In this document: positions 51,856 to 55,621 of the stretch, one piece after another
How positions within the stretch are numbered: the first letter of the stretch is position 1
How the letters are laid out: every line of letters begins with the position of its first letter
Assembly (NCBI RefSeq): GCF_900110215.1
Contig: NZ_FOCX01000003.1
Coordinates: forward strand, 1 to 64,000
Direction: 5' to 3'
DNA: 64,000 nucleotides
Source of the DNA: Halorientalis persicus
GTDB lineage: Archaea > Halobacteriota > Halobacteria > Halobacteriales > Haloarculaceae
Notes under the pieces: model-generated
The model's database searches: none
Told to the model about the DNA's origin: nothing
What the model saw: only the letters and a program-made list of their open reading frames with translations
Position numbers and translations under genes: made by a program

Positions 51856-53307
51856 TCAGGCGACCTGGTCGATCCAGTCCTGGGCGCGTGACTCAGACAC
51901 TTCGGCGGCCTCGGCGACCGTGGCGGCGTCGGCCGCGGCCAGATCGGCGACCGTCTCGATGCCGGCGGCCTGCAGGCGTTCGGCGTAGGTCGGGCCGATG
52001 CCGTTGACCGTGTCCACACCGTCGGCACCCTCCTCGCCGGTGAGGGTGGCCTGTTCGCCGTCCTCGTTCTCGGTCGTCTCGACCTCGATCTCGTCGTCCT
52101 CGGCCGGCGGTTCGTCTGCTTCGGGTTCTTCTTCGGTCTCGACGGCCTCGTCGGTTCCCTCGCCGATCTCGATCTCGGTGGCTTCCTCCTCGATTCCCAC
52201 GTCTTCGCTTTGCTCGTGGAACCACTCGGCGGCGCGGGGCCAGACGTCCTCGTGGGAGGATCCCGAGACCGACAGGCCGATGTGGCCGGTCGGGTACTCG
52301 ATGGTCTCGATATCGTCGGAGCCGACCACGTCGTTGAACGGCTTGCTCGCCGCCGCCGGGATGAGGTGGTCGTACTCGCCCATGAGCTGGAGGATGGGCA
52401 TATCGATCTTGGAGACGTCGACGTGTTTCCCGTCCAGAGACAGCTCGTTCTTGTAGAGCTTGTTGTCCTGGTAGATGTCGCCCAGGAACTGCTCGTAGGC
52501 CGCGCCGGCGAGGTCGATCCCCTCGTCGAGCCAGCGCTCCATCCGGGCGAAGTTCTCGACGAAGGCCTCGTTCTCGAGGTTGTCGTACAGCCGGACGTAC
52601 TTCGAGACGAAGTTGTCGACGGGGTCCATCAGGGCGAAGCCGACGTCCAACATCCCCGCGGGGACGTTCCCGAACGCGTCGGTCACGTCCTCGGGGTCGT
52701 AGTACTCGTCGCTGCCCCACTCTTCGAGGACGCCCCCGGTCTCGTCGAAGTAGAGACCGGCAGCCATCAGGGCCAGCGCGTTGACCTTCTCGGGGTGGAG
52801 TGCGGCGTACATCGCCGTCATGGTCCCGCCCATGCAGTAGCCCAGAATGTTGATCTGCTCCTGTCCGGACCGCTCGGCGACCTCCTCGACGCAGTTGTGG
52901 ATGTACCGGTTGACGTAGTCGTCGAGCGTGAGGTACTGATCCATCCGGGACGGTTCGTTCCAGTCGATGAGGTACACGTCGTGGCCCGCCTCGAGCAGGC
53001 GGCGCACGACGGACCGCTCGGGCTGGAGGTCGAGGATGTACGGCTTGTTGATCAGCGCGTACACGATGAGGATCGGCACGTCACACTGCTCGTCCTCGGG
53101 CACCTCGATGCCGGCGTCCTCGGGCTTGTAGTGGAGCAGTTCCAGCTTGTTCTCGGTGTAGACGACCTCGCTGGGGGTCTCGCCGACCTCGATGTTCGCC
53201 AGCGGGCCGGCCCGTTCGGGGGCGACGCTGGCTTTCTCCAGACCGTCGGCCATCGCCTCGAACCCCTTGCGCTGGGCGTCCAGTGCGTTCGCGAACGGGT
53301 TGATCAT
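51856..53307 (-). CDS. phaC: class III-type PHA synthase, PhaC subunit, with C-terminal HhH extension
   Basis: Polymerises (R)-3-hydroxyacyl-CoA into PHA together with PhaE. 483 residues. Core about 1-360: lipase-like box [15 protein letters not shown] with nucleophile Cys158, then Asp313 (GEYDHLIPA) and His342 ([10 protein letters not shown]), the expected triad. Beyond 365 is a long acidic linker of Glu/Asp-rich residues, followed by a 50-residue tail ([23 protein letters not shown] ... [11 protein letters not shown]) that looks like helix-hairpin-helix units. Start overlaps the end of phaE by 4 bases. Confidence 0.96.
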
Positions 53308-53846
53308 AGTTCCTCGAGGATCTCGTCGAGCTTCTGCTCGACGGCGTGCTGGCGACGCTCCAGTTCGACGAGTCGCTCGCCGACCTCCATCACGTCGTCA
53401 CGGGTGGGCAGGCCCAGCTGCTGGATCGTGTCCTGGGTGACCTCGTCGGCCTCTTCCTGCATATCCATCATCGCCTCGACCAGTTGGCCGTTGGCGGCGG
53501 CAAAGGCGGAGGTGCCCATGACTTCCTTGAAGGCCTCGTTGGCCGACTGGAGCCAGATGTCACGCATCTCGGAGGGCTCGACGTCCTCGCCCTGGGCCGC
53601 GTCGGTCGTGCGCTCGAACATCTTCTCGGAGGCGTCCATCCAGACCTCGTAGGCGCGGTTGTACCCCTCGAAGCCTTCGGCGACTTCGTCTTCCTCGGGC
53701 ATCGAGCCCTCGACGGCCTCTGCCCAGGACTCCATGAAGGCCGCCTGGGCCTTCATGTTCTGCTCGACGGAGTCCGCGACCGCGTCGTTCATCTCCTCTA
53801 CCATCTCGTTCCAGTCGTCCATCGGGTCGTTGGTTGTATCGCTCAT
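53304..53846 (-). CDS. phaE: PHA synthase subunit PhaE
   Basis: 180 residues, all helix, acidic. Partner of PhaC in class III synthases. Recognisable regions are [58 protein letters not shown] and a C-terminal coiled coil [35 protein letters not shown]. The haloarchaeal form is shorter than bacterial PhaE. ATG of phaC overlaps its stop. Confidence 0.93.
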
Positions 53847-53897: not shown

Positions 53898-54449
53898 TCA
53901 GGCCTCGAGGGATTCCTGGGCCTGCTCCTGGACTTCCTGGACCTGGTCCTGGACCTGCTCGACCTGGTCCTGCATCTGCTCGAGCTGGTCTTCGACCTGC
54001 TCGGCGGCTTCGATGGACTGGCCTTCGAGGTCCTCGTGGGCCTCCAGGACCATCTCGATCTGCTCGTCCATCGCGTCGAGGTAGTCCGTGGTCAGGTCCT
54101 CGTAGGCGTCGAGCCCGTCACGGGTCTCGGCTTCGATGTTCTCGAACAGTTCGGCGTGGTTCTCGAGGAGGAACTCGAACTGCTCGTCGACGGCTTCGCG
54201 GATCTCCTCGACGGAGCCGGCCGCGCCGGGCATGGTGCTCTCGATCGCGTCGAGGTAGCTGTCGAAGGCGGTCTTGGACAGTTCGACGGTGCGGCGCTGG
54301 GCCGACTCCTGACTGTCGAGGCTGTCGACGAAGGCCTCGCTGACGGTCTGCTGGAACTCGACGCCCTGCTCGACCGCGTTCTGACTCTGCTTGATCGCCT
54401 GGCGCTGCATCTCGAACGTCGTCGTAATGGGGGTGGTGTACTCTGTCAT
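53898..54449 (-). CDS. phaP: PHA granule-associated protein (phasin)
   Basis: 183 residues forming long amphipathic helices; the C-terminal half is a heptad-type coiled coil rich in Gln, Glu and Leu (EQVEDQLEQMQDQVEQVQ). It coats PHA granules and limits their size. Lies between phaR and phaE, 51 bases from phaE and 7 bases after phaR, in the order phaR-phaP-phaE-phaC known from Haloferax. Confidence 0.92.
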   Translation of the reverse strand: MTEYTTPITTTFEMQRQAIKQSQNAVEQGVEFQQTVSEAFVDSLDSQESAQRRTVELSKTAFDSYLDAIESTMPGAAGSVEEIREAVDEQFEFLLENHAELFENIEAETRDGLDAYEDLTTDYLDAMDEQIEMVLEAHEDLEGQSIEAAEQVEDQLEQMQDQVEQVQDQVQEVQEQAQESLEA

Positions 54450-54456
54450 AGTGGGT

Positions 54457-54768
54457 TCACTCCTGGGAACGCTTGCGCTTGACCGGAACCACGACAGTCT
54501 GGACGATGTCGCCCTCCTCGATGTCGAGCGCCTCGCGCTCGGCGTCGGGAATGCTGATGCGTCCGCCGCTCTGGACGCGGGTCTTGAACGTCGCCATCTG
54601 ACTCATCGCGCCCAACTGGGGGACGCCAACGCCCGACGTGCTGGCACCGAGCAGCTGCTGGATAAATTCCTGTTGCTGCTCCATCGCCTGCTCGCTGGCC
54701 TGCTGGAATCCCTTCATCATCTGCGGGGGCCACATGACGCCGTCCTCGCTGTCGTGTTGCTCGGTCAT
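54457..54768 (-). CDS. phaR: PhaR-like AbrB/SpoVT-domain regulator
   Basis: 103 residues from ATG 54768. N-terminal part (MWPPQMMKGFQQASEQAMEQQQEF) is amphipathic, like a phasin helix; the C-terminal 45 residues form an AbrB-type swapped-hairpin DNA-binding domain (ATFKTRVQSGGRISIPDAERE ... DIVQTVVVPVKRK). This fits a regulator that binds both granules and its own promoter, as described for Haloferax mediterranei PhaR. First gene of the leftward PHA operon. Confidence 0.92.
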   Translation of the reverse strand: MTEQHDSEDGVMWPPQMMKGFQQASEQAMEQQQEFIQQLLGASTSGVGVPQLGAMSQMATFKTRVQSGGRISIPDAEREALDIEEGDIVQTVVVPVKRKRSQE

Positions 54769-54796
54769 CCCTTCACTACTCTCTACGCCACTCGAC

Positions 54797-54855
54797 ACCA
54801 TAAGGGTTATGCTTCTGACCACTCATTACCATGTATTGGTAGCAAATGGTAGCAA
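54797..54855. promoter_or_regulatory. divergent phaR/phaJ control region with TGGTA repeats
   Basis: TTATG/CATAA dyad at 54799-54811 contains a TATA-like CTTATGG for phaR, about 30 bases before the ATG at 54768. Next to it TACCA (54827-54831) and TGGTA (54837-54841) form a 5-base inverted repeat, and TGGTAGCAA occurs twice as a direct repeat at 54837-54845 and 54847-54855. These are candidate PhaR sites by position only. Confidence 0.5.
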
Positions 54856-54971
54856 CTGAACCCGCGGGGGCCGATCGCCGACCCTCACCGGCCACGCCGA
54901 GCGCGCGCGATTCGTACAGAGCGGCCCGCAGATGCCGCTCTGGAGCCGACGGATCATGTGAACCACCACGC

Positions 54972-54978
54972 TTTAATA
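54972..54978 (+). promoter_or_regulatory. TATA box of the phaJ-like gene
   Basis: TTTAATA is centred 29 bases before the ATG at 55004, fitting a leaderless transcript. Confidence 0.6.
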
Positions 54979-55003: not shown

Positions 55004-55621
55004 ATGAGCTCCAACCCGCACCGGAGCGCGTTGCTGGACACGTGGACGGAGACCTCGTCGCACGTTTTCAACAGCGTTCTCGCGGCGAACAGAGCGGCGT
55101 TCGCGGCCTTCGGTGTCAACTCCGACGACGACACCGACGAGGACCCGACGCTGCCGCCGCGAGAGCGGATCGAACCCGACGAAGACCTCCCCGAGTGGAC
55201 CATCGAACGGACCGAAGACGACCGAACCGAACTCGGCGTCGGGGACCGCATCGAGTTCACCAAGACCATCTCCGAGGACGACGTTACCTCGTTCGCGGCT
55301 GCCAGCGGCGACACCAACCCGCTACACCTCGACGACGAGTACGCCTCCGAGACCCGGTTCCGGGGCCGGATCGCTCACGGGACGCTCGTCGGCGGCCTCA
55401 TCAGCGCCGCCCTCGCCCGCGTGCCCGGACTGGTCGTCTATCTCTCGCAGGATCTGGAATTCCACAACCCGGTCCGTATCGGTGATCGCCTCACCGCCGA
55501 GATCGAGATCGTCGAGGACCTGGGCAACGACCAGTTCCGGCTGACCACGCAGGTCAAGCAGGACGAGGAAGTCGTCATCGACGGCGAAGCCGTCATCCTG
55601 GTCGACGAACAGCCCGAGTAA
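55004..55621 (+). CDS. phaJ: (R)-specific enoyl-CoA hydratase-like MaoC protein
   Basis: 205 residues. The MaoC hydratase core (about 75-200) has FAAASGDTNPLHLDDEYASETRFRGRIAHGTLVGGLIS, including the Asp and His of the catalytic dyad. An N-terminal extension of about 75 residues is added: residues 8-35 (ALLDTWTETSSHVFNSVLAANRAAFAAF) form an amphipathic helix, then an acidic linker. Converts trans-2-enoyl-CoA to (R)-3-hydroxyacyl-CoA for the synthase. Divergent from phaR. GTG 54998 is an alternative start two codons upstream. Confidence 0.9.
   Translation: MSSNPHRSALLDTWTETSSHVFNSVLAANRAAFAAFGVNSDDDTDEDPTLPPRERIEPDEDLPEWTIERTEDDRTELGVGDRIEFTKTISEDDVTSFAAASGDTNPLHLDDEYASETRFRGRIAHGTLVGGLISAALARVPGLVVYLSQDLEFHNPVRIGDRLTAEIEIVEDLGNDQFRLTTQVKQDEEVVIDGEAVILVDEQPE

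Follow-up and report, generated by a model that had tools for sequence, protein, structure and literature searches.

The 64,000-nucleotide stretch of Halorientalis persicus DNA analysed here (the window) carries at 55004-55621, on the plus strand, a phaJ1-type gene for an (R)-specific enoyl-CoA hydratase of 205 amino acids plus stop, recognized from its open reading frame, Pfam and Foldseek. The ATG at 55004 opens the 205-residue frame, and a TATA-like box, TTTAATA, is read directly on the same strand at 54972-54978, 26-32 nt upstream; by the haloarchaeal promoter spacing rule, this placement presumably fits a leaderless transcript beginning at or next to that ATG. The corresponding protein of Halorientalis pallida is 98% identical. 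The encoded chain is divided into three parts: an N-terminal amphipathic helix (residues 7-36, 55022-55111), most conserved at W14, A28, N29, A31 and A35 and delimited by alignment, pN/pS and the AF2 model; an acidic, fast-evolving linker (residues 37-72, 55112-55219), delimited by charge, pN/pS and AF2; and the MaoC catalytic domain (residues 73-205, 55220-55618), supported by Pfam, alignment and AF2/Foldseek. Residues 86-178 match Pfam MaoC with 84.5 bits against a cut-off of 27, and the MaoC fold of the AF2 model retrieves 5cpg by Foldseek with an E-value of 1.7e-14. The Asp/His dyad, D103/H108, was assigned by the Asp31/His36 spacing of Aeromonas caviae PhaJ, as quoted in PMC4823750, and with its spacing of five is invariant in 51/51 aligned rows. 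Judged by its sequence, the product is a PhaJ1-type MaoC hydratase, whose R-specific activity is predicted from the ortholog discussed below. There are 11 MaoC matches in the host genome, and among the eight of these loci examined the helix was found on phaJ1 only.

The gene is divergent from a phaR-phaP-phaE-phaC group on the minus strand, a PHA gene order described as conserved in haloarchaea (PMC10948481; PMC9049629). phaR (54457-54822, start codon uncertain) encodes an N-terminal helix and an AbrB-like DNA-binding domain, the AbrB matches lying below curated cut-offs; phaP (53898-54449) encodes a haloarchaeal phasin, named from its position and its similarity to genes found between phaR and phaE elsewhere. 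Pfam/profile matches identify phaE (53304-53846), the class III PHA synthase subunit, and phaC (51856-53307), the class III PHA synthase, which extends at its C-terminus into an acidic segment closed by a helix-hairpin-helix domain. Between phaJ and phaR, a tandem 10-bp repeat, TGGTAGCAA(A/C), is situated at 54837-54856; the phaRP promoter of Hfx. mediterranei has four tandem repeats, thought to be the PhaR site (PMC9049629).

In the AF2 model (built from 60 rows), residues 7-35 form the helix, no regular structure follows up to residue 65, and the enzyme fold begins at 66. The helix block has mean pLDDT values of 40-45, which are low, and the MaoC fold is mostly above 90; this low confidence would suit a mobile tether, and is no proof of one. 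For residues 11-37 the hydrophobic moment amounts to 0.37, a value reached by 0.5% of shuffles; among shorter stretches, 11-28 gives p = 0.01, and 14-31 and 19-36 give p = 0.08 each. Averaged over 57 relatives, the hydrophobicity profile has its maximum at 100 degrees per residue (p = 0.009); taken singly, 47/57 rows are amphipathic at p < 0.05. Residues 38-70 carry a net charge of -10. Moment statistics, model and charge together confirm the initial annotation in its description of a MaoC domain preceded by an amphipathic helix (residues 8-35, approximately) and an acidic linker. In three divergent members of the family the distance from W to N is 22 instead of 15 residues, which equals one extra heptad.

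The conservation of the helix was followed in 101 loci, namely 100 related loci taken from the best MaoC/PhaJ matches together with the studied one. The helix was recognized by eye in 96/101 of them, a proportion not to be read as a frequency, since the selection started from the best matches and five loci (L064-L068) were chosen for missing the helix, their match starting downstream of it. The 57 non-redundant helix rows align over 34 columns free of gaps, with W14 present in 56/57, A28 in 53/57, and N29 and A31 in 57/57, although the fixation of the last two is partly circular, as the pattern selecting the rows demanded an N followed by A or S; five helix-bearing rows dropped by that pattern also present the N and the A, by eye. 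In a second set, comprising 80 named loci of the genome collection, a similar pattern was matched in 76, including L210, which has Q where N29 is expected and was matched at another N. As for the named loci without the pattern, L213 (Halorhabdus amylolytica) has no helix, L166 has a diverged helix with H in place of N, the helix is weak in L180, and in L173 it lies in a frame other than that of the best match. Uncorrected pN/pS values, from 22 sequences close to the studied one (231 non-independent pairs), are 0.365 for residues 2-9, 0.107 for the helix (10-37), 0.574 for the linker (38-72) and 0.274 for the enzyme (73-205). Purifying selection on the helix is stronger than on the enzyme domain, and the helix is conserved in many families of the order. 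The N-terminal helix stands out as an element of its own, specific in sequence and under strong selection, which we report as new: among the papers listed by our literature searches none describes a PhaJ1 helix, and the sections of PMC4823750 consulted, which deal with the ortholog, do not discuss it.

That ortholog is PhaJ1 of Hfx. mediterranei (HFX_5217), the sole granule-associated enzyme among five MaoC R-hydratases (PMC4823750, citing earlier work), so that a granule-bound hydratase is already known. By its description in the same paper, it resembles the studied protein in adjoining phaR-phaP-phaE-phaC, in its MaoC domain and in its length of 219 aa; its activity is R-specific and reversible, with hydration favored in vitro. 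HFX_5217 itself is absent from the best 30 of 77 tblastn matches in the plasmid collection; helix-bearing Haloferax relatives are those of Hfx. mucosum (L174), Hfx. larsenii (L239) and locus L081 (219 aa). PhaJ1 produced in Hfx. volcanii with an N-terminal His tag could be purified from the supernatant (PMC4823750), which indicates that the helix does not force insolubility. The MaoC domain is shared with bacterial hydratases, namely PhaJ1 of Pseudomonas aeruginosa (5cpg; 46% identity, rmsd 1.6) and PhaJ of A. caviae (1iq6; 36-37% identity, rmsd 1.3-1.4), but their chains, of 132-155 residues, have no counterpart of the helix and linker: the sequence match opens at residue 75-76 of the studied protein and at residue 5-9 of theirs. 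The top structural match, AF1124 of Archaeoglobus (2b3m, 3k67), has about 30 residues ahead of its domain.

Amphipathic helices are also a property of other granule-associated proteins, namely bacterial phasins, for which they have been proposed to mediate binding (PMC5658603), and haloarchaeal PhaP, the likeness residing in amphipathicity. An assignment of the helix as a Pfam phasin was discarded, as 0/57 helix rows matched any phasin profile, 34-residue pieces being short for such a test. A profile of the helix was run by hmmsearch against 74 PhaR, 74 PhaP, 77 PhaE and 77 PhaC sequences. Scores against PhaR, PhaP and PhaC stayed within the shuffled controls; against PhaE, 65/77 best matches begin at residues 60-69, around a W, and the maximum reaches 9.4 bits vs 4.8 for the best of 770 shuffles. 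Profile-profile comparison did not back PhaE, 33/200 column shuffles scoring equally high, and placed PhaR (first 80 columns) above 200/200 shuffles, at 13.7 vs 11.8; equally high shuffles numbered 5/200 for PhaP and 13/200 for PhaC (first 120 columns). Column shuffling destroys helical periodicity, and unrelated amphipathic helices may therefore beat this control. Homology of the helix to other Pha helices is consequently not claimed; the resemblance in style to the helices of PhaR and PhaP put forward in the initial annotation holds as far as amphipathicity is concerned.

The helix-only profile and PhaC were searched over the same 293 haloarchaeal genomes. At E <= 1e-3, a cut-off chosen post hoc with no genome falling between 5e-4 and 0.008, the helix is present in 146/293 genomes, PhaC in 167/293, and both in 145, the Fisher p of this pairing being phylogeny-blind. 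The sole genome with the helix and without PhaC (G048) is 64% complete, and 20 further strong helix-profile places, when fetched, were PhaJ genes in 20/20 cases. An initial figure of 22 PhaC genomes missing the helix was revised, because 9 of the 22 show a divergent helix by eye (G008, G015, G025, G030, G060, G102, G136, G199 and G260); with these included, the helix occurs in 154/167 PhaC genomes. Of the remaining 13, five genomes of genus g6 have a helix-less PhaJ, located in one of them (L065) 3.5 kb from phaR; in G075 (g6) and G109, G221, G262 and G277 (g7), PhaJ has no match at E <= 1e-8 anywhere in the genome; G187 offers at E <= 1e-20 only a hydratase with CBS domains (CBS-MaoC), on another contig; and G074 and G248 have one with a YHS domain (YHS-MaoC). 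A second match to the helix profile, at E <= 1, occurs in the host genome.

At the level of loci, phaC lies near phaJ in 77/101, the studied locus included, and in the 24/101 others the phaJ bears the helix while the few kilobases fetched contain no phaC (L052, L069, L076, L079 and 20 others); around the orphan phaJ of L171, L177 and L190, no PHA gene was recognized by eye among the larger frames. A published survey of 103 haloarchaeal species found phaC in 52/52 of those with phaJ (PMC4823750), and the genome-wide figure for helix and PhaC is therefore largely this known gene pairing. Evidence specific to the helix comes from selection and from two genomes of one genus, possibly a single event. 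In that genus (g4), the helix is found in 5/5 PhaC genomes, and the two genomes without PhaC (G148 and G289) lack a PhaE match as well. Both keep phaR beside an intact phaJ MaoC frame, and no helix-like sequence was found in any frame of either phaJ locus; in G289 a stop codon stands ahead of the domain's first ATG, and the helix-profile match of G148 (E = 0.019) is in the range seen for genomes devoid of PHA genes. The combination of phaR and an intact MaoC frame with no helix, in two genomes lacking phaE-phaC, is to our knowledge a new observation, though the two may represent a single event. Each also has three matches to phaP-like genes; since these persist although no PHA synthase is matched, some members of the haloarchaeal PhaP family may have other functions. 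Conversely, three clusters with no phaP at the locus retain the helix (L050, L059 and L061), phaP-like genes being located elsewhere in the genome. Taken with the g4 pair, these clusters suggest that the helix follows PhaE-PhaC or the polymer, and not PhaR or PhaP.

Genus g6 (Halorhabdus-like) provides a different situation, as its five genomes with phaRPEC and a helix-less PhaJ indicate that PHA genes can persist without the helix. A tree of 85 MaoC domains (143 columns, weakly resolved) requires at least two changes of helix state on its starred branches, and four on the best tree; the g6 MaoC domains group apart from their own family, so that gene replacement, instead of loss of the helix, is possible there. 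Acyl-CoA dehydrogenases (PF00441, scored on up to 12 candidates per genome) give 0 matches in six g6 genomes and one match each in G109, G221, G262 and G277, the g7 genomes having phaRPEC and no PhaJ; another g7 genome, G212, has eight matches and a helix-bearing PhaJ. There are counter-examples in both directions, namely G003, G265 and G275 (zero matches) and G060 (one) with the helix, and G187, G074 and G248 (6-8 matches) without it; PF00725 is present in 22/22 genomes tested. These few events, in two genera, are suggestive of retention of the helix where the polymer feeds beta-oxidation. Halorhabdus utahensis has been described as having phaC and lacking phaJ, and H. tiamatea as being without a full beta-oxidation set (PMC4823750).

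The interpretation we favor, with a probability of about 0.68, is that the helix is a sequence-specific docking element that would recruit PhaJ1 to the PHA granule, with either PhaE-PhaC or the polymer as its partner. In the g4 pair the helix is missing together with the PHA synthase, with the rest of the enzyme kept, and this suggests that it probably holds the enzyme on the granule; that the helix is the granule anchor, and what it binds, are our inferences. Mechanistically, the acidic, fast-evolving linker would carry the short amphipathic helix, which would dock on something present only together with the PHA synthase, whether PhaE-PhaC as a complex or the surface of the polymer; the hydratase so held would convert the (R)-3-hydroxyacyl-CoA derived from PHA mobilization to enoyl-CoA for beta-oxidation, and its reverse reaction could supply some monomer. 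The proposal of the initial annotation that the enzyme is held on the granule finds support in the granule residence of the ortholog (PMC4823750) and in the helix-less enzyme of genomes without phaE-phaC. A narrower and tentative version is that the helix is a docking motif for PhaE-PhaC, whereby synthase and hydratase would constitute one reversible machine at the granule surface; we regard it as rather unlikely in this specific form, to which we were led by elimination, as G148 and G289 keep phaR and phaP-like genes without phaE-phaC and without the helix.

Partly overlapping with the docking element is the possibility that the helix works as a miniature phasin, binding the polymer or granule surface directly with no protein partner. 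Its amphipathicity, on which phasin models also rest (PMC5658603), would fit, and the joint absence of helix and phaC is equally compatible with a polymer ligand; we nonetheless consider this possible rather than probable, as the near-identity at W14, A28, N29 and A31 and a pN/pS lower than in the enzyme go beyond the requirements of a generic amphipathic helix, and none of the 57 members matches a Pfam phasin. An oligomerization element, by which the hydratase would form a helix bundle with no targeting role, could account for the spacing of three to four between the conserved W14, S18, V21, V25, A28, A32 and A35, and for the W-N distance longer by one heptad in three divergent members; it leaves unexplained the loss of the helix together with phaE-phaC while the MaoC frame is intact, and is in our opinion unlikely. 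Quite unlikely too is the first reading of the locus, in which attachment to the granule through the helix would serve chiefly to supply PhaC with monomer during synthesis. The pairing of the helix with PhaC would favor such feeding, as would the reversible reaction, the preference for hydration in vitro and the small amount of PHV that PhaJ1 alone restored in a strain deprived of the other sources; against it, phaJ deletions hardly changed synthesis in Hfx. mediterranei, PhaJ4, which is off the granules, fed synthesis better than PhaJ1, and deletion of phaJ1 slowed PHA mobilization (PMC4823750). The same source assigns PhaJ1 mainly to mobilization, and feeding monomer directly to PhaC is therefore probably not its main job; furthermore, phaRPEC genomes with 0-1 acyl-CoA dehydrogenase matches (six of g6, 4/5 of g7) do without the helix or without PhaJ. 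Finally, a leftover or salt-adaptation tail with no specific function would be in line with the five g6 genomes that keep phaRPEC without the helix, yet it is very improbable for a segment under stronger selection than the catalytic domain and kept across many families of the order.

Little has been established about what recruits non-phasin enzymes to PHA granules, and no defined tag for granule targeting is known to us from archaea. Should the helix suffice for docking, a salt-tolerant tag of 30 residues could direct enzymes to archaeal granules; besides, the conserved W14, N29 and A31 open a mutational route to the coupling between polymer and beta-oxidation in haloarchaea.

Related MaoC proteins encoded near other phaC genes also have an N-terminal addition, differing from PhaJ1 in that a CBS or YHS domain stands where PhaJ1 has the helix. 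On plasmid pHME505 of Hfx. mediterranei (L240:2575-3468), a gene two positions from phaC encodes a MaoC domain combined with two CBS stretches; this hydratase, whose activity might be under the control of a nucleotide ligand, lacks the helix and is perhaps PhaJ5, described as not granule-associated (PMC4823750). YHS-MaoC was identified in L242 by Pfam, and in L246 and L270 by sequence likeness. In L242 and L246 its gene is directly upstream of phaC, with no phaR, phaP or phaE detected at the locus and no PhaE match in either genome, perhaps representing a second, PhaE-less type of PHA cluster. In the PhaC of the window, the C-terminal acidic linker is followed by a Pfam HHH_5 match at residues 432-481 (E 6e-12). 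Bacterial PhaM and PhaF tie granules to DNA, and the helix-hairpin-helix domain of PhaC might do likewise. PhaF is also presented as a granule-DNA link in PMC5658603. A helix-hairpin-helix domain is likewise present in the PhaC of a YHS-type cluster.
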